A stretch of 20,809 nt of DNA from a virus. A model generated the notes under the pieces. It saw only the letters and a program-made list of their open reading frames with translations. It did not search any database and was not told where the DNA came from. How positions within the stretch are numbered: position 1 is the first letter of the stretch; the number at the start of each line of letters is the position of its first letter. Shown piece after piece: positions 3,365-12,618 of the stretch. The stretch is taken from IMG/VR virus record IMGVR_UViG_3300036857_000387, positions 1 to 20,809 of that record; one strand, 5' to 3'. The translations under genes were made by a program, and so were the position numbers.

Positions 3365-3406
3365 TGAAGGAGGCGCGCCGGGCCGCACTCATGGTGTGCC
3401 CAAATG
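3365..3406 (+). promoter_or_regulatory. Capsid ribosome binding site with a possible hairpin between Shine-Dalgarno and ATG
   Basis: A near-perfect Shine-Dalgarno sequence, GAAGGAGG (3366-3373), lies 30 bases before the capsid ATG (3404), which is too far for normal use. No other ATG, GTG or TTG is in frame between the TGA at 3365 and 3404. The intervening bases 3380-3401 can fold: 3380-3383 with 3398-3401 and 3385-3388 with 3394-3397, one bulged C and a five-base loop TCATG. Folding would leave about eight bases between Shine-Dalgarno and ATG, a normal spacing. T4 gene 25 is a known case of a hairpin bridging a split initiation region. Whether it works here is inference. Confidence 0.45.
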
Positions 3407-4540
3407 GCAGATACCTCATACAATCTCAACGATGCCGAGACCGTCAAGCTCTGGTCCCGGAAGCTCGACCGGGAGGCTCTGAAGCGCACCTACATGAAGC
3501 GCTTCATGGGCGACGGCTCGGACTCGATGATCACCATCAAGAACGAGACTAACAAGAGCGCGGGCGACCGCATCCGCGTGACCCTGCGCAAGCAGATGAA
3601 GGGACGCGGCGTCGTCGGCGACGCCAACCTGGAAGGCAACGAGGAGAGCCTCTCCACGTTCACCCAGGACCTGGTGATCAATCAGCTCCGCCATGCCGGC
3701 CGTTCCGACGGCGCCATGACCGAGCAGCGGGTGACGTTCGACATCCGCAACGAGTGCATGGACGGCCTCGCCGACTGGTGGGCCGAGCGCTGGGACATCT
3801 GGGGCTTCTATCACCTCGCCGGCTTCACGCCGGGCAACACGACGGGGACGGCCAGCTCAGACACCGATGCCACGGGCTCGGAGTACAACGGCCACAACAC
3901 GATCACTGCGCCCACGCGCATCGTGCGGGCTGGCTCCGGGCTGACGGCAGACCAGTCGCTCACGACCTCGAACGTGTTCTCGCTGATCCTCATCGACAAG
4001 GCGATCGAGAATGCGAAGGTGGCCCAGACCGGCACCGGGCGGAACCCGATCCGACCGATCATGGTCGGGGGCAAGCCCTACTTCGTGGTGTTCCTGCACC
4101 CCTACCAGGTGACGGACCTGCGCACCAAGGCCAGCTCGGACACGGCGCACCCGGTGCTCTGGTACGACCTGCAGAAGTCGCGCATCCAGGGCGGGGAGAT
4201 GGACAACGGCATCTTCAACGGCGCACTGGGCGAGTACAATGGCTGCATCCTGCACGAGTCTACGCACGTTCCGAAGGGCGTGAGCAGTTCGACGGGCCTC
4301 GCCTTCGCCAATACCCGCAGGGCCATCCTCTGCGGCGCGCAGGCGGCCGTCGCCGGCTTCGGCATCGGCCACGACAAGTCCAGCTACGACTGGTTCGAGC
4401 AGCGGTTCGACTACGGCAACAAGCTGGGCGTCAAGGCCGGCTGCATCTCGGGCCTGAAGAAATCGACCTATGCCGAGAGCGGAACGGACCATGACTTCGG
4501 CACCGTGGTCATGTCGTCCTACGCCGCGGCTCACAGCTGA
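3404..4540 (+). CDS. Major capsid protein, N4-gp56 family
   Basis: 378 residues. The N-terminal part, with AETVKLWSRKLDREALKRTY followed by KRFMGDGSDSMI, and the central DWWAERWDIWGFYHLAG stretch fit the N4-gp56-type (DUF4043-related) HK97-fold major capsid proteins. Other family-like elements are a basic K-G-R-G segment near residue 65 and a C-terminal half with HPYQVTDLR and a DYGNKLG motif. The protein forms the icosahedral shell. It follows a scaffold-like gene and is followed at once by a small probable decoration protein. The length is typical. The start is fixed because no other start codon is available downstream of the in-frame TGA at 3365; the ribosome binding site is unusual (see the separate entry). 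Confidence 0.88.
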   Translation: MADTSYNLNDAETVKLWSRKLDREALKRTYMKRFMGDGSDSMITIKNETNKSAGDRIRVTLRKQMKGRGVVGDANLEGNEESLSTFTQDLVINQLRHAGRSDGAMTEQRVTFDIRNECMDGLADWWAERWDIWGFYHLAGFTPGNTTGTASSDTDATGSEYNGHNTITAPTRIVRAGSGLTADQSLTTSNVFSLILIDKAIENAKVAQTGTGRNPIRPIMVGGKPYFVVFLHPYQVTDLRTKASSDTAHPVLWYDLQKSRIQGGEMDNGIFNGALGEYNGCILHESTHVPKGVSSSTGLAFANTRRAILCGAQAAVAGFGIGHDKSSYDWFEQRFDYGNKLGVKAGCISGLKKSTYAESGTDHDFGTVVMSSYAAAHS

Positions 4541-4552
4541 GAGGAGGCCACA

Positions 4553-4966
4553 ATGGCAGTTGGAACTACCGCGCGGAAGCCGATCGGCCTCCAGGTCTCA
4601 TTCCTGGAGAAGCGGCACGATGCCGGCGATGCCACGGACACCAACGGGACGCAGTTCCTCATCGGAACCATCCCGAAGGGCGCCATGGTCGTCGCCGTCT
4701 ACAAGAAGACGAATGAGACGCCGACCGGCGGCGCCCGTCAGCTGTGGATTGGCACCACGGCTGCGAAGAGCTCGCTCGTCGGTGCTGCCGGCATCGCCGA
4801 GGGCACCTCGACGACCGTGCAGGTGCCGACCGGCGTCAAATCCGTGAACTTCACGCAGGACACGGACCTCTACATCACGCAGACAGGCATGACGACGACC
4901 AAGCCGACGGCGGGCATCTTCGACATCGCCATTGCCTACGTCGTCTCGCCGCAGTTCGAAACCTGA
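4553..4966 (+). CDS. Small capsid-associated protein, probable head decoration or stabilising protein
   Basis: 137 residues. GAGGAGG at 4541-4547 is five bases before the ATG, the strongest ribosome binding site in the window, which fits high expression. The sequence is Thr/Gly/Val-rich with alternating polar and hydrophobic residues, so a compact beta fold is likely. It has no signal, membrane or catalytic motif. A short beta protein coded directly after the major capsid gene commonly serves as a capsid cement or decoration protein. That role is inferred from size, order and expression signal; the sequence family is not one I can name. Confidence 0.6.
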   Translation: MAVGTTARKPIGLQVSFLEKRHDAGDATDTNGTQFLIGTIPKGAMVVAVYKKTNETPTGGARQLWIGTTAAKSSLVGAAGIAEGTSTTVQVPTGVKSVNFTQDTDLYITQTGMTTTKPTAGIFDIAIAYVVSPQFET

Positions 4967-4980
4967 CCGAGGAGTACCGA

Positions 4981-7218
4981 GTGAGCGGCTATTATCTGTA
5001 TATCGGGGCGGCGCCACTGGCGCCGTCTCCCTACTATGTGCTGCTGGCGACGCCGGCCGCGAGCCATCCCGAGTGCAACCATTCCAAGTCGATGGCTGCC
5101 ACAGTGGAGACACTTTCCCGCGCCGGCATCCAGTTCGATTTCCTGCAGGTGCAGGGCTCCTGCCACGTCGACGACGTGCGCAATGGCATCATCCGCGACT
5201 TCCTGAAGTGGGAACGGCCGGCGAGCGAGGCGCCGCACTGCCGTCATCGGTACACCGATCTGTTCTTCATCGATGCCGACATGGGATGGGACGCCAAGGG
5301 CATTATCGACCTGCTGATGGCGCCTGGCGATATCGTGGCCGGCGTCTACCGGCACAAGAACGATATTGAGACCTATCCATTCGTGGCCGGCCAGTTCGAG
5401 GGGTTAGGCGCCAATGAGGCCAACCTGTTCGAGATGGAGAAGGCGGCGACCGGCTTCATGCGCATCCGCCGCGCCGTGCTGGAGCGGCTGGCCGAGGTCG
5501 AGCGCGCCGGCGGGCTGCGGCAGACGGGCTCGCCCCGCTGCTGGTGGCCGAACCCGCAGGACGAGGAGAAGAATCCCGTCCATCCGGTCGCGCGCATTGT
5601 CGAACGCGGCTGGCCGCGGGAGATGGGCATTCCCGTGGAGGTCCATGCCGGCAACGACTACCAGTCCGGCGACTACGTGTTGTGCCTGAAGGCGCGCGCG
5701 GCCGGCTTCGGCGTGTTCGTCGACCCGGACATGAAGTTCAGCCATGCCGGCAGCAAGGTCTGGGTCGGCCACTTCGGCAACCATCTGCGCACCGAGCAGG
5801 GCGTACTCACGCCATCGTTCGTCGCGGCGGTGGAGGCGTTGAAGACCGGCAAGGCCGAGCCTGAGATCTTCGCGGCGCTGTTCGAGGGCTGGGACATCTT
5901 CGCCGGCCGCAGTCCGCTCGGCAGTCCAATGACGCTGGAGCCGGCTGCGCTTGCCGAGCTGTGGGGGCGCGCACGCGGCGCAATTGCTCCCGTGCTGGAG
6001 ATGGGCTCGGGCCTCACGACCCTGGTGCTGGGGCTGGCGCTGCAGGGCACGGGCCAGGCCGTGCATACGCTGGAGGACAATCTGCCGTCATGGCGCCAGA
6101 CCGCCTCGGCCCTCGATCGGCTCGGCATCAAGAACGTGATCTTGCACTACGCCCCGCTGGTGCCGATTGGCCCGAAGGCCGACGAAGTTGCCTACGGCGA
6201 GGCCGAGATCCCCGATACGTTCGGCCTGGTGCTGGTCGATGGCCCCTACTTCTCGCCGCAACGTCGGACGGCGGTATGGGCCCTGCGCACGAGGATCAGG
6301 GCGGCGACGCTCATCGTCGATGACGTGGGCACGAGCAGCGATCTCATCGAGATGCTGCAGAAGGCCGGCCATGTCGTCGACATCAGGGCCGGCGGCAAGA
6401 AGCGGTGGGCGATCGCGACGCCGACAGCCCTGCAGCGGCCGGCCGCCGACCCCAGGCATACTCTGCCGGGGCAGCTCATCGTCTCGCTCACCTCGCATCC
6501 GCCGCGGTTCTCGATGCTGCGGCAGGCGCTCGACAGCCTGCTCGCGCAGGATATGAAGCCCGACGCCGTGGTGCTCTGGCTCGCCCGCAGCGAGTTCGCG
6601 AACCTGCCGAGCGACATCCTGCGGCTCGACGGACTCACGATCCGGCAGTGCGAGGATCTACGCTCGTACAAGAAGCTGATCCCGGCGCTGCGGGAATATC
6701 CGGGCGCCTTCGTGCTGACGGCCGATGACGACCTGATGTATCCGCGGACATGGGTGCGGAGCTTCGTCGAGGCTTCGCGCTGGCCCGTGAAGGAAATTCT
6801 GCTGCGGCGGGCACGCAAGATGAGCTTCGTTCACGGGCCGGCGCCTTCTGCCTATAATTCCTGGCCCCTCGCCCATGCCCTGCTGGAGCAGAACGCACTC
6901 CCAGCCCTGCCCAATCTGTTCCCCACGTCCTGCCACGGCATGCTGGTGCCGCCGGGCGCCATGTATCAGGCCGTCGCCGACATGGCTGGCGCGCAGGCGC
7001 TGGCGCCCATGAACGACGACATCTGGTGGTACTGGATGGGGCTGCTCGGCGGCTCGACGTTCCGCGTCATCGGCGGCGATCCCATCGAGGACCTGCCGAC
7101 GGGCGCCGACGGGCTCTGGTCGCAGCACAATCGCGACGGCGGCAACGACCGGCAGATCGCGGCGATGATCGAGGCTTACGGCATGCCATGGGGACCGGTG
7201 CGCGAGGCTGCGGAATGA
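4981..7218 (+). CDS. Three-domain enzyme: glycosyltransferase - methyltransferase-like - glycosyltransferase
   Basis: 745 residues from a GTG at 4981, with GAGGAG at 4969-4974. Residues of about 15-300 look like a GT-A glycosyltransferase: FFIDADMGW gives a DxD (Asp98, Asp100) for metal and nucleotide-sugar binding, followed by IVAGVYRHK, a GFMRIRRAVLERL helix and GDYVLCLKARAAGF. Residues of about 310-485 resemble a class I methyltransferase Rossmann fold: VLEMGSGLTT (338-347, motif I), an acidic LED after the next strand, LVLVDGPYF around Asp420 and LIVDD (444-448). Residues of about 498-745 form a second, distinct GT-A-like domain: LIVSLTSHPPRF, SYKKLIPAL, TADDDLMYP (Asp582-584) and NDDIWWYWM. 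That pattern is known from transferases in bacterial surface-polysaccharide loci. The enzyme would act in the cytoplasm. Its acceptor (virion protein, fibre, or host polysaccharide) is unknown. It overlaps the next frame by ATGA. Confidence 0.72.
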   Translation: MSGYYLYIGAAPLAPSPYYVLLATPAASHPECNHSKSMAATVETLSRAGIQFDFLQVQGSCHVDDVRNGIIRDFLKWERPASEAPHCRHRYTDLFFIDADMGWDAKGIIDLLMAPGDIVAGVYRHKNDIETYPFVAGQFEGLGANEANLFEMEKAATGFMRIRRAVLERLAEVERAGGLRQTGSPRCWWPNPQDEEKNPVHPVARIVERGWPREMGIPVEVHAGNDYQSGDYVLCLKARAAGFGVFVDPDMKFSHAGSKVWVGHFGNHLRTEQGVLTPSFVAAVEALKTGKAEPEIFAALFEGWDIFAGRSPLGSPMTLEPAALAELWGRARGAIAPVLEMGSGLTTLVLGLALQGTGQAVHTLEDNLPSWRQTASALDRLGIKNVILHYAPLVPIGPKADEVAYGEAEIPDTFGLVLVDGPYFSPQRRTAVWALRTRIRAATLIVDDVGTSSDLIEMLQKAGHVVDIRAGGKKRWAIATPTALQRPAADPRHTLPGQLIVSLTSHPPRFSMLRQALDSLLAQDMKPDAVVLWLARSEFANLPSDILRLDGLTIRQCEDLRSYKKLIPALREYPGAFVLTADDDLMYPRTWVRSFVEASRWPVKEILLRRARKMSFVHGPAPSAYNSWPLAHALLEQNALPALPNLFPTSCHGMLVPPGAMYQAVADMAGAQALAPMNDDIWWYWMGLLGGSTFRVIGGDPIEDLPTGADGLWSQHNRDGGNDRQIAAMIEAYGMPWGPVREAAE

Positions 7219-7607
7219 GCACGGCAATTGCACTTGCAGCGCGCAGCTATGGCGTGGGGTTCATGCTATCCTGGCCGAGGAGAAGAAGCATTTCGGCCGC
7301 CCTTCAGTCGCGTTGGTCATTCGCTCGAGCTCAGAGCGTGGGCACCCCGCAGGACGCTCTTGCGAAGGATTATGGCTGGGGCAAGTGGACGTTTTCCGGG
7401 CCTTTTCTGATCGAGCAAATGTGGCAGCCAGAGGCGGTTTTTGCAGTCTCCATTTTTTTTATGACCCCCAAAAGCTACGCCGAAAGCGGGTTTGCGCCGT
7501 TCTGTTGGGTGTGTGGAGCGCGGCACAACGGGCAACGAACATGGCTTTCCGTTGGGCCGTTGCGGCTCTCGTCCTATCTTCTGCCTGATGGGCCGGCTCT
7601 CGAATGA
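7215..7607 (+). CDS. Doubtful 130-residue frame in a lower-GC stretch
   Basis: The ATG overlaps the preceding stop (ATGA) and has GAGG at 7204-7207, seven bases upstream. The stop overlaps the next gene's ATG the same way, so gene spacing favours a real frame. The product is Ser/Arg/Ala/Trp-rich with no motif I recognise, and codon use does not look like the neighbours. By hand count GC is about 50-57% in several 60-base lines here, against 65% just downstream. A second plus-strand frame is open through 7588 and encodes a plausible helical stretch around 7265-7300. An eight-T run sits at 7453-7460. It may be a recent insertion, a decayed gene or a frame-shifted one. Confidence 0.35.
   Translation: MSTAIALAARSYGVGFMLSWPRRRSISAALQSRWSFARAQSVGTPQDALAKDYGWGKWTFSGPFLIEQMWQPEAVFAVSIFFMTPKSYAESGFAPFCWVCGARHNGQRTWLSVGPLRLSSYLLPDGPALE
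7453..7460. other. Eight-T homopolymer in the low-GC stretch
   Basis: A run of eight T bases followed by ATGACCCCC is unusual in this GC-rich window. Just upstream, GAGGC (7431-7435) can pair with GTCTC (7446-7450) using one wobble pair. That gives a weak terminator-like shape, but five base pairs is too little to call a terminator. The run lies within the doubtful 130-residue frame, where a one-base slip would change the reading frame. Confidence 0.4.
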
Positions 7608-8278
7608 GCACCTTCCTCGCCATGCAGACCCGCATCGCGGACGACACGCTGCGGGACGACCTGTCGAGCCAGATCCAGAACGCGATCAACGATGCCATCG
7701 AGCTGCAGGAAGGCGAGCGCCACAAGTTCAACGAGAAGCGCTACCAACTCCTTACCGTGGCCGGCCAGCAGTACTACGACCTCGCCGAGCCGACGCTGCT
7801 CGACCAGGACGGCGCGGCGCTGGAGACGGGCGAGCTGCTGATCGAGGTCGACGACATCACCGCGACCGTCAACAGCCAGCCCTATCGGCTCTGCCCGCGC
7901 ACCCAGCAGCGCATCAACGAGTGGCAGTCCTCTACCTACCAGGGCCAGCCGGCGGATTATACAATCTACGGTGGACAGCTGCGCATCTTTCCCATCCCCG
8001 ATGCCGTCTATACGCTCGACCTAATGGGGCTCGCCCGCCTCGGGCCGAACCCGCTCAGCGCCGATGCCGACACGAACGGCTGGATGACGGATGGGGCCCC
8101 AATCATCCGGGCGCAGGCTGAGATGCTGCTCTACCGCGACATCATCCGCGACACCGACGGCTTTGCACTGGCGCGGCAGCGGCTGATCGAAGCGGGCGGC
8201 AATCCCGAACCGGCCTCGGCCAAGCGCAAGATGGCGGCGCAGGCCTTCACCGGCCGCATGCGGGCGTGGTCGCTGTGA
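7604..8278 (+). CDS. Head-tail adaptor (connector) protein
   Basis: 224 residues. The start MSTFLAMQTRIADDTLRDDL, followed by SSQIQNAINDAIELQ and an aromatic segment near residue 40, is the helical N-terminus seen in podovirus adaptor proteins (SU10-adaptor / gp4-like family). A beta segment with YDLAEP and a C-terminal helical bundle (IIRAQAEMLLYRDIIRD, then LARQRLIEAGG) follow. The adaptor docks under the portal and links it to the tail nozzle, and here the gene lies upstream of the nozzle gene as expected. It starts with ATGA overlap and has no clear Shine-Dalgarno, so translation probably depends on coupling to the frame before it. Confidence 0.72.
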   Translation: MSTFLAMQTRIADDTLRDDLSSQIQNAINDAIELQEGERHKFNEKRYQLLTVAGQQYYDLAEPTLLDQDGAALETGELLIEVDDITATVNSQPYRLCPRTQQRINEWQSSTYQGQPADYTIYGGQLRIFPIPDAVYTLDLMGLARLGPNPLSADADTNGWMTDGAPIIRAQAEMLLYRDIIRDTDGFALARQRLIEAGGNPEPASAKRKMAAQAFTGRMRAWSL

Positions 8279-10141: not shown

Positions 10142-11080
10142 GTGGCAGAAATAACCGACCTCGATCCCACCGACGCCAATAATACTGCCAGATTCCCGGA
10201 AGGAATGCTGGGCGGCACTATTAACGACAGTGCGCGCGCTCTGGAAGGGATTTTGGCCCGCTGGTTCCGCGATACGAACGGCAGCGTCACGGCGACCGGC
10301 TCGTCTAACGCCTACGCCATTACAAGCACTCGCACAATTAGCGCGCTTGCAAACAATATAATAATGACCTGGACAGCCAATTTCACCAACACCGGCGCGG
10401 CGACGCTGAACCTGAACAGCCTGGGCGCCAAGTCCATCAAGCGCTTCAACGGCTCGGCACTGGCGGCCGGGGACATCATCTCGGGCCAGCCGGTGACGGT
10501 CGTCTACAAGTCTTCGCCTGACCAGTGGTTCATGATGACGGCACCGGCAGCGCTGGTGACGAGCATGTTCGCCGACTTCGCCGAGAACGCCTCGCCGGGC
10601 GATCCGGCGGCGGATACGGGGCGGCTCTACGCGCAGGACGATGGCGCGGGTGTCACCGATCTGCGTTGGCGGGACAGCGCCGGCACCAACTACAGCCTGC
10701 GCAGCGCGACGCAGGCCGAGATGGAGGCTGCCAGTACGACGAAGGTCGTGGTGGCCTCGCGGCAGCACTTCCATCCTGGGCATGTGAAAGCGGCTGGCCG
10801 CGTGAATTCAAGCGGCAGCGTTGTGGGCACAGCCTACAACGTCGCATCCGTAAGCCAGACCGGCACGGGCGTCTATCGCGTGACGCTGACCAACGCCATG
10901 GCGGATACGAATTATTGGGTCGTGGCAAGCGCGGTAACTGATGGCATTCCGGGCAATTCGTGCCTTGTCAGCTGGGCGGTTGTGTCCGCAACGGTCTTTG
11001 ACGTCACGACGAAACGGGCATTCGACGGCGGCGACAAGGATGCGGCCTTCGGCTTCGTCGTATTCGGGGATATGGCCTAG
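10142..11080 (+). CDS. Tail fibre protein
   Basis: 312 residues from a GTG at 10142, with AGGA at 10128-10131 ten bases upstream. The N-terminus (MAEITDLDPTDANNTARFPE, then NDSARALEGILARWFRDTNG) is the virion-anchoring start found in many prophage tail fibres. It is followed by a repeat-type beta segment (TNTGAATLNLNSLGAKSIKRF, YKSSPDQWFMM). A linker (GDPAADTGRLYAQDD) leads to a C-terminal domain from about residue 200, with HPGHVKAAGRVNSSG and a Val/Ala/Thr-rich beta end that is probably the receptor-binding tip. The 5' third is clearly lower in GC than the genes around it (26 of 60 bases in 10321-10380), a sign of modular exchange. Its TAG stop shares the palindrome CTAG with the antisense gene that follows. 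Confidence 0.75.
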   Translation: MAEITDLDPTDANNTARFPEGMLGGTINDSARALEGILARWFRDTNGSVTATGSSNAYAITSTRTISALANNIIMTWTANFTNTGAATLNLNSLGAKSIKRFNGSALAAGDIISGQPVTVVYKSSPDQWFMMTAPAALVTSMFADFAENASPGDPAADTGRLYAQDDGAGVTDLRWRDSAGTNYSLRSATQAEMEAASTTKVVVASRQHFHPGHVKAAGRVNSSGSVVGTAYNVASVSQTGTGVYRVTLTNAMADTNYWVVASAVTDGIPGNSCLVSWAVVSATVFDVTTKRAFDGGDKDAAFGFVVFGDMA

Positions 11081-11781
11081 GGCGCGGAGAGCCGGGCAGC
11101 CTTTGCTCGCTTGGTACGACCGGTACGGAAGACGCGCTTTTCAATAGCCTTGAGCCAATCGGAGGGTTTGGGGAACATAGCAGCATGAGCGCTTTCGTGT
11201 CCTACCATGTCGCTGCCGAGAGCATCGTTGGCGGAGTAGCGCGAATTGAGATGGGCAAAGGATACGCCTTGCAGGCCGCGCAGAAAGGCGCGCCCCATGG
11301 CAACCTCGTCGCCGGAGTAGTGCGCGATCTTGCACTGCCGCTCCCATTCCTGGGCGAAGATGCGGGCCCCCTCGGTGGGCCGGAAAACGACGACCCGAGA
11401 CGACACCTTCATGGTGAGCCGCTTGTGCGGCGGCCAGAACAGGCGGACCCAGCGGCCGAAGATCGTGATCGCCACATCGCCGGAAAATTCGGTCGCCGGA
11501 GCAATGTCCCCGTTCACCCTGCAATCCACGTCCATGAGGACCAGCGTCTTACCGGGATAGGCGTCCATGGTTTCCAGAACGACGGACGGCTTGCGCAGTG
11601 TGTTCCAGCCCTTGCCGAGCTTGGGCTTCAACCAGAGATGGAAGGGTATGCCGTGCTCGGTGAGATTGGCTGAAAAATGAGCGGCGAGCTTGTAGTAGTC
11701 GGGCGTGAACCACCCAACGACGAGCCAATCCCCGCTTATAGGACCGCTGGTGAGATGAACGTCGGCTGCAGAATCTGACAT
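11077..11781 (-). CDS. Antisense glycosyltransferase-like protein between two fibre genes
   Basis: 234 residues on the minus strand from the ATG at 11781. GAGGG (11089-style spacing aside, at 11789-11793 on the minus strand) lies seven bases upstream, inside codons of the divergent fibre gene; this makes the 24-residue longer alternative unnecessary. WLVVGWFTPDYYKLAAHF (about 18-35) followed by a short strand and PGKTLVLMDVDCRV gives a DxD motif. These suit a GT-A nucleotide-diphospho-sugar transferase. A later VSSRVVVFRPTEGARIF and a GDEVAMGRAF element are also typical of such folds, and the end is basic. It overlaps the upstream fibre gene tail-to-tail by four bases. Base use is lower in GC than the neighbours. 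It looks like a moron (accessory gene) able to be expressed on its own, but I see no clear promoter. Acceptor unknown. Confidence 0.68.
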   Translation of the reverse strand: MSDSAADVHLTSGPISGDWLVVGWFTPDYYKLAAHFSANLTEHGIPFHLWLKPKLGKGWNTLRKPSVVLETMDAYPGKTLVLMDVDCRVNGDIAPATEFSGDVAITIFGRWVRLFWPPHKRLTMKVSSRVVVFRPTEGARIFAQEWERQCKIAHYSGDEVAMGRAFLRGLQGVSFAHLNSRYSANDALGSDMVGHESAHAAMFPKPSDWLKAIEKRVFRTGRTKRAKAARLSAP

Positions 11782-11784
11782 AAA

Positions 11785-12618
11785 ATGGCCCTCGATACCC
11801 GTTGGAAGAACCCGCAAGGCAAGGACCCTGAAGCACTCTGGCGCTGGGCGCAAGACACAACTGCCGAGCTGCGCAAGGGGGCATTCCTTTCCGGGGCCGA
11901 GAGTGACATTTCCGATTTGCTGACGCTCGTTCCCAGTCTGTTCGCGAGCGTTGCCGTCCAGTCCTTCACGACATCTGGTGCCAATACCTATACGCCGACG
12001 GCCAACATGGTGTTTGCGCTGGTCTTTTCGACCGGTGCTGGCGGAGGTGGAGGCGGGGCCGATGCGAACGACGGCGGATCGACAGCCGGCGGCGCGGGCG
12101 GTGCCGCAGGCGGAACCTGTATAGAACTCTTCACTGCAGCCCAGATCGGGGCGAGCCAGACAGTCACGGTTGGCGCCAAGGGCACGGGCGGGGCGGCCTC
12201 AACCGGCGCGAACGGCACGGCCGGCGGCAACACGACATTCGGTGCGCTGCACACCGCGACTGGCGGCGGCCTTGGTGCCGGCTTGCAGACGACGACCGAC
12301 GGCATTGCAGCCGGCGGCACAGGCGGAGTGCCCACGGGCGGGCTCATCAACCTGACCGGCGGCGACGGCGGGAATGCTGCCGCGCTCAATACCGGCAACA
12401 ACATCGCAATCGGTGGAGATGGCGGCGCCTCGTTCTGGGGCGGCGGCGGCAAGGGTGGCCGTCGTGGAGGATCGAGCGGCGTCGTGGCGCCTCAGACGGG
12501 CAAGGCGCCAGGCAGCGGTGGCGGCGGTGGCGCTGCGATCAGCAGCAATGAGACGGCCGGCGCAGACGGCGCCGATGGCATCTGCGTCGTGGTCGAGTTC
12601 ATCGGCGCCTCGGTCTGA
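11785..12618 (+). CDS. Glycine-rich tail fibre/adhesin protein
   Basis: 277 residues. The first 35 or so residues (MALDTRWKNPQGKDPEALWR onward) form a helical anchor. A beta segment (SFTTSGANTYTPTANMVFAL) follows, then about 170 residues of Gly/Ala/Thr-rich sequence with many GG and GGG runs, and a closing strand (GADGADGICVVVEFI). This is the pattern of Gly-rich fibre tips that carry polyglycine loops, as in T-even gp38-type adhesins and related Gly-rich domains. It is likely the variable receptor contact. The only possible start is the ATG at 11785 (an in-frame TGA lies at 11776). I see no Shine-Dalgarno, and the leader lies within the antisense gene. It overlaps the next ATG (TGATG). Confidence 0.68.
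   Translation: MALDTRWKNPQGKDPEALWRWAQDTTAELRKGAFLSGAESDISDLLTLVPSLFASVAVQSFTTSGANTYTPTANMVFALVFSTGAGGGGGGADANDGGSTAGGAGGAAGGTCIELFTAAQIGASQTVTVGAKGTGGAASTGANGTAGGNTTFGALHTATGGGLGAGLQTTTDGIAAGGTGGVPTGGLINLTGGDGGNAAALNTGNNIAIGGDGGASFWGGGGKGGRRGGSSGVVAPQTGKAPGSGGGGGAAISSNETAGADGADGICVVVEFIGASV

Follow-up and report, generated by a model that had tools for sequence, protein, structure and literature searches.

The window that we analysed is a stretch of viral DNA of 20,809 bases from an uncultured phage, and its source record is probably a partial viral genome. On its plus strand, the major capsid gene (3404-4540; Phage_capsid_3, N4-gp56 type; PF13252, E=3e-64) is followed by a small conserved ORF (4553-4966) and then by the gene considered here (4981-7218), which encodes a protein of 745 residues with three domains, glycosyltransferase, methyltransferase and glycosyltransferase. 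A placement behind the capsid gene, as the earlier note had described it, is thus borne out. The next recognised gene is that of a head-tail adaptor of the SU10_adaptor type (7604-8278, plus strand). Between the enzyme gene and the adaptor gene lie 385 bases (7219-7603) without a convincing gene; short ORFs are found there in two related contigs, L142 and L004. A Pfam search of the small ORF 4553-4966 gave no match, while homologues occupy the same place in L144, L146, L010 and L147, and it is possible that it encodes a decoration protein.

The frame 4981-7218 is open throughout and initiated by GTG. The strong ribosome binding site that had been noticed is present as AGGAG at 4970-4974 (plus strand), six bases from the GTG. 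The relatives of the protein align from the same start, and in L144, L009, L010 and L146 the enzyme gene begins where the small ORF before it has its stop. A longer version starting at 4744 was rejected, as it overlaps the preceding gene and is without support from relatives. An assembly chimera was excluded by the identical domain order in independent contigs, which share about 69-79% identity. All motifs named in the earlier note were found at their positions, namely D98/D100, VLEMGSG (338-344), LVDGP (418-422), LIVDD (444-448), DDD (582-584) and NDDIWWYWM from residue 678, and they are conserved beyond chance. In comparisons with L003, L005 and L144, the dN/dS ratio was 0.16-0.29 for the first domain (D1), 0.26-0.32 for the second (D2) and 0.19-0.45 for the third (D3), indicating that all three are under purifying selection. 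Searches with the whole protein were of limited use. Pfam returned Methyltransf_24 as the single match (E=0.016), PHROGs returned phrog_1574, annotated as 'unknown function', over residues 20-260 (E=1.1e-18), and neither NCBIfam nor a phmmer search against the PDB gave a match. The more distant relatives were reached by domain-wise alignments and profiles only.

D1 (4981-5835, plus strand, residues ~1-285) is predicted to be a GT-A-type glycosyltransferase of the phrog_1574 family, in agreement with the DxD glycosyltransferase that had been proposed. Among 20 D1 relatives, D98, D100, W103, D231 and H255 are invariant. The profile built from these 20 sequences matches the protein A197 of the virus STIV (PDB 2c0n) over the DxD region with E=2.5e-5, and a Foldseek search of the D1-D2 model against viral GT-A models gave E-values down to 1.4e-15 and TMt up to 0.75. 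When the same model was compared with the PDB, the best 50 matches listed were all methyltransferases and none was a glycosyltransferase; hence, the fold of D1 is assigned from the profile match to A197 and from the viral model library. Elsewhere, D1 occurs as a stand-alone protein or after another glycosyltransferase domain (GT2 where Pfam recognises it). The family is also present in cultured phages, an example being gp78 of the Pelagibacter phage HTVC023P. At the column of D231, a D1 that is fused to D2 always has SGD or GGD, whereas D1-only relatives have SED, GED or TED. This difference may be a clade signature, possibly connected with a change of acceptor or mechanism. Since the ED motif has become GD in the D1-D2 group, the chemistry of D1 may differ, and we count this against our main reading.

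The central domain D2 (5878-6408, plus strand, residues ~300-476) carries E340xGSG, E365, D420GP and D447-D448. By profile and by predicted fold it is a class I, COMT-like SAM methyltransferase with a Rossmann core, as had been suspected. The residues E340, G342, S343, G344, E365, D420, D447 and D448 are invariant among 22 D2 relatives, so that the features of the SAM site (ExGSG, the beta-2 Glu, the beta-4 Asp and DD) are fixed in all of them. The profile of these 22 sequences found 3cvo as the best of the solved methyltransferases (6e-9), along with Rv0187-type O-methyltransferases (2e-7). The D1-D2 model (pLDDT 89) led in Foldseek to COMT-type O-methyltransferases with E~5e-7 and TMt ~0.6. 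With Methyltransf_24 (PF13578; cut-off 26.3 bits), the window protein scores 16.5 bits, and the homologous D2 domains of L008 and L140 score 36.1 (E=1.3e-8) and 28.9 bits, respectively.

D3 (6457-7195, plus strand, residues ~493-738) is a predicted GT-A glycosyltransferase related to KfiA and belongs to another family than D1. The profile of 42 D3 relatives matched KfiA with E=2e-8 and heparosan synthase B with E=1e-5, and in all 42 the DDD at 582-584 and the two aspartates of DDIW are invariant. The D3 model (pLDDT 92) had KfiA as its best Foldseek match (E=4e-8), followed by SpsA. These results uphold the second GT-A-like domain with a DDD motif. The identity to KfiA is just 16%, and we therefore do not claim a GT45 assignment for D3. 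That D1 and D3 are duplicates of one glycosyltransferase domain can be rejected, because they fall into separate families and their nearest solved relatives are not the same; profiles, predicted structures and relatives all agree with the earlier view of two different types of transferase. We also looked for structures and relatives that would speak against an enzyme. The models have a Rossmann methyltransferase core in D2 and a GT-A fold in D3, and relatives in which one of the parts stands alone match families of glycosyltransferases and methyltransferases, not non-enzymatic structural proteins.

The complete D1-D2-D3 architecture was found in the window, in L002-L006 and in L144/L118, full-length relatives being available in L002-L006 and L144; a further one, in L007, is cut by the contig edge. 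The domain order therefore recurs in related phages. When profiles were run over every locus retrieved, D2-type domains were almost always fused behind D1. L120 alone departs from this, in that a weaker relative of D2 forms a gene of its own there, close to a D3 relative. In this other virus (L120:2313-4196), a D3-type glycosyltransferase, a methyltransferase that resembles FkbM by eye and a Methyltransf_24 gene form three consecutive separate genes. In the D1 tree, all 22 D1-D2 sequences lie on one side of a branch (91/97; 90% of bootstraps), which is consistent with a single origin of the D1-D2 unit in the 22 sampled phage sequences, and the three-domain clade is nested within this group (100/100). 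In the D3 tree, the five phage D3 domains form one group (100/100), which is nested in a clade of 33 that is mainly proteobacterial (100/99). This position indicates one capture: D3 was gained once, in the clade of the window, from a lineage of bacterial polysaccharide glycosyltransferases. The bacterial relatives of D3 belong to gene clusters for O-antigen and polysaccharides; encoded next to them are, among others, a polysaccharide protein of the flippase type, a member of the O-antigen ligase family, GT4, GT8 and YjbH. Such surroundings would fit a target on the host surface just as well, and we count this against our main reading.

The genomic place of the enzyme is conserved as well. Of the 25 D1-D2(-D3) contigs with enough upstream sequence, 23 (about 19 of 20 when near-identical contigs are merged) carry a major capsid gene on the same strand as the immediate upstream neighbour, and the adaptor gene is located downstream in most contigs. 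The capsid, adaptor and portal profiles used for these counts were run over all loci and had been built from some of these same loci; the PHROG matches and the depositors' annotation of MW202691 and MW202573 are independent of them. The upstream capsid genes fall into two families, phrog_334 (Phage_capsid_3) and phrog_283 (P22 coat), and D1-only genes in L014, L016, L017 and L020 are likewise found behind a P22-type capsid gene. Two contigs, L126 and L127, are exceptions with the portal gene downstream and no recognised capsid gene upstream, and many D1-GT2 fusions (L012, L018, L021 and others) do not adjoin a capsid gene recognised by the profiles; both observations count against our main reading. 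In MW202573, the order is P22 coat, small ORF, stand-alone methyltransferase, stand-alone D1-type glycosyltransferase (E=1e-46), small ORF and adaptor. The two stand-alone enzyme genes are at L155:5366-6552 (MW202573.1), and the methyltransferase belongs to another family than D2, Methyltransf_11/23. As judged from these sequences, a glycosyltransferase and a methyltransferase have been united in the slot between capsid and adaptor by two routes, by fusion and, in MW202573, as separate genes.

The reading that we favour, and consider reasonably probable, is that of a head-module enzyme with three activities, by which a virion protein receives a short methylated glycan. The target would most likely be the capsid protein or the small protein encoded beside the capsid gene. 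D1 would use its DxD motif and a metal ion to transfer the first or only sugar from a nucleotide sugar of the host. Since D1-D2 is a conserved unit, D2 most likely acts on the product of D1; it would O-methylate this sugar with SAM, possibly with a metal at D420/D447/D448 as in COMT-like enzymes. D3, derived from a bacterial surface-polysaccharide glycosyltransferase, would add a further sugar in the clade of the window, although at which step it acts is a guess. The host would supply both the nucleotide sugars and SAM. What the sequences and models show are the domains with their predicted folds, the conserved residues, the selection, the history of the fusion and the place behind the capsid gene; catalysis, donors, linkage, target, the sequence of the reactions and the late expression that had been suggested are what we infer. 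Because relatives occupy the same genome place in many phages, it is probable that such phages place a methylated sugar on their own particles. A broader proposal joins two parts: tailed phages of both capsid types would share a head-module glycosyltransferase-methyltransferase that O-methylates a capsid sugar during normal assembly, and the clade of the window would have evolved a three-step synthase in a single polypeptide by capturing a bacterial polysaccharide glycosyltransferase. We give this joint proposal an even chance of being correct.

Phages are known to alter the surface glycans of their hosts, and the enzyme could instead modify a surface polysaccharide such as O-antigen or capsule during infection and so block the adsorption of further phages. 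The bacterial kin of D3, which sit beside flippase, O-antigen ligase and other glycosyltransferase genes and serve surface polysaccharides, would fit such a role. However, host-modifying phage genes are usually early genes or part of a lysogeny module, whereas in two capsid lineages this gene has its place within the head module, after the capsid gene, and in several relatives it begins at the stop of the small post-capsid ORF. The conservation of this place across phages favours modification of the virion over that of the host surface, which we regard as an unlikely target. It is less likely still that activity is confined to one or two of the domains, for example with D1 or D2 as a binding or scaffold domain, and that a single transfer takes place. 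The loss of the Glu of the ED motif from D1 in the D1-D2 group would be in line with partial activity, but the DxD motif, D231, H255, the SAM-site residues and the DDD of D3 are all invariant and dN/dS is low in each domain. DNA is the substrate of some phage glycosyltransferases. A role of these enzymes against nucleases has also been proposed (PMC10202952), but the gene lies among virion genes rather than replication genes and D3 is closest to polysaccharide enzymes, which makes glycosylation and methylation of modified bases in the phage DNA, or of another small cell component, very improbable.

The protein encoded in the window resembles in composition A064R of the algal virus PBCV-1, where the methylated glycan of the major capsid protein is completed by two glycosyltransferase domains and a sugar O-methyltransferase, each with an activity demonstrated in assays (PMC9614988). 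In both cases, one viral protein combines two different glycosyltransferase domains with a class I SAM methyltransferase domain and may work in a like manner. However, A064R has 638 residues in the order GT-GT-MT, compared with 745 residues and GT-MT-GT in the window, and the A064R chain was not named among the PDB sequence matches of the D1 or D3 profiles, so that kinship is unsupported here. A197 of STIV, the profile match of D1, is an essential viral glycosyltransferase whose proposed substrate is the glycosylated capsid protein (PMC10551542). It is likewise a viral GT-A protein from a virus with a glycosylated capsid protein, but it consists of a single domain without a methyltransferase, belongs to an archaeal virus, and its acceptor is a proposed one.

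The mycobacteriophage Che8 has glycosylated virion proteins (PMC12363180), and its glycosyltransferase gp110 was reported to be essential for capsid glycosylation. We found that the adjoining gp108 (L153:2172-3347), annotated as 'glycosyltransferase', contains GT2 and a C-terminal Methyltransf_24/TylF domain and is, as judged from its sequence, an independent phage glycosyltransferase-methyltransferase fusion. The gp108-gp110 region thus also has glycosylation genes including such a fusion in a phage with glycosylated virion proteins, but the glycosyltransferase domains belong to other families, and the genes lie near the right genome end and not in the head module. A search of the three sequences gp108-110 with the D1 profile gave no significant match (E>0.05). 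The 'polysaccharide biosynthesis' gene of the podovirus MW202691.1 is a homologue; this D1-D2 fusion fills the same slot, with the coat gene on one side and tail accessory genes on the other. It differs in that it is without D3, is about 30% identical and accompanies a P22-type rather than an N4-gp56-type coat. KfiA and heparosan synthase B (PmHS2), the closest solved relatives of D3, share the GT-A fold and the DDD motif, but they are bacterial capsule enzymes and KfiA's identity in Foldseek is the low one given above. The literature searched for a bifunctional phage glycosyltransferase-methyltransferase acting on capsids gave nothing specific.

To our knowledge, virion glycosylation has been demonstrated in only a few tailed phages, mainly mycobacteriophages. 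If many uncultured phages keep a glycosyltransferase-methyltransferase in the capsid slot, capsid glycosylation would become a widespread and predictable trait, phrog_1574 would gain a function, and compact enzymes for the synthesis of methylated glycans would follow. Viral multi-domain enzymes that build glycans are already known; the link to the capsid gene is unusually consistent here.

A second ORF of the window deserves mention. It encodes 244 amino acids on the minus strand (11077-11811) and is, within the tail region, a lone candidate for a gene on that strand. Searches against Pfam, PHROG and phage sequences gave no match, and those against the PDB no significant one. The ORF occupies the gap from 11080 to 11785 and bears a GT-A-like 'VLMDVDCRVNGD' stretch.
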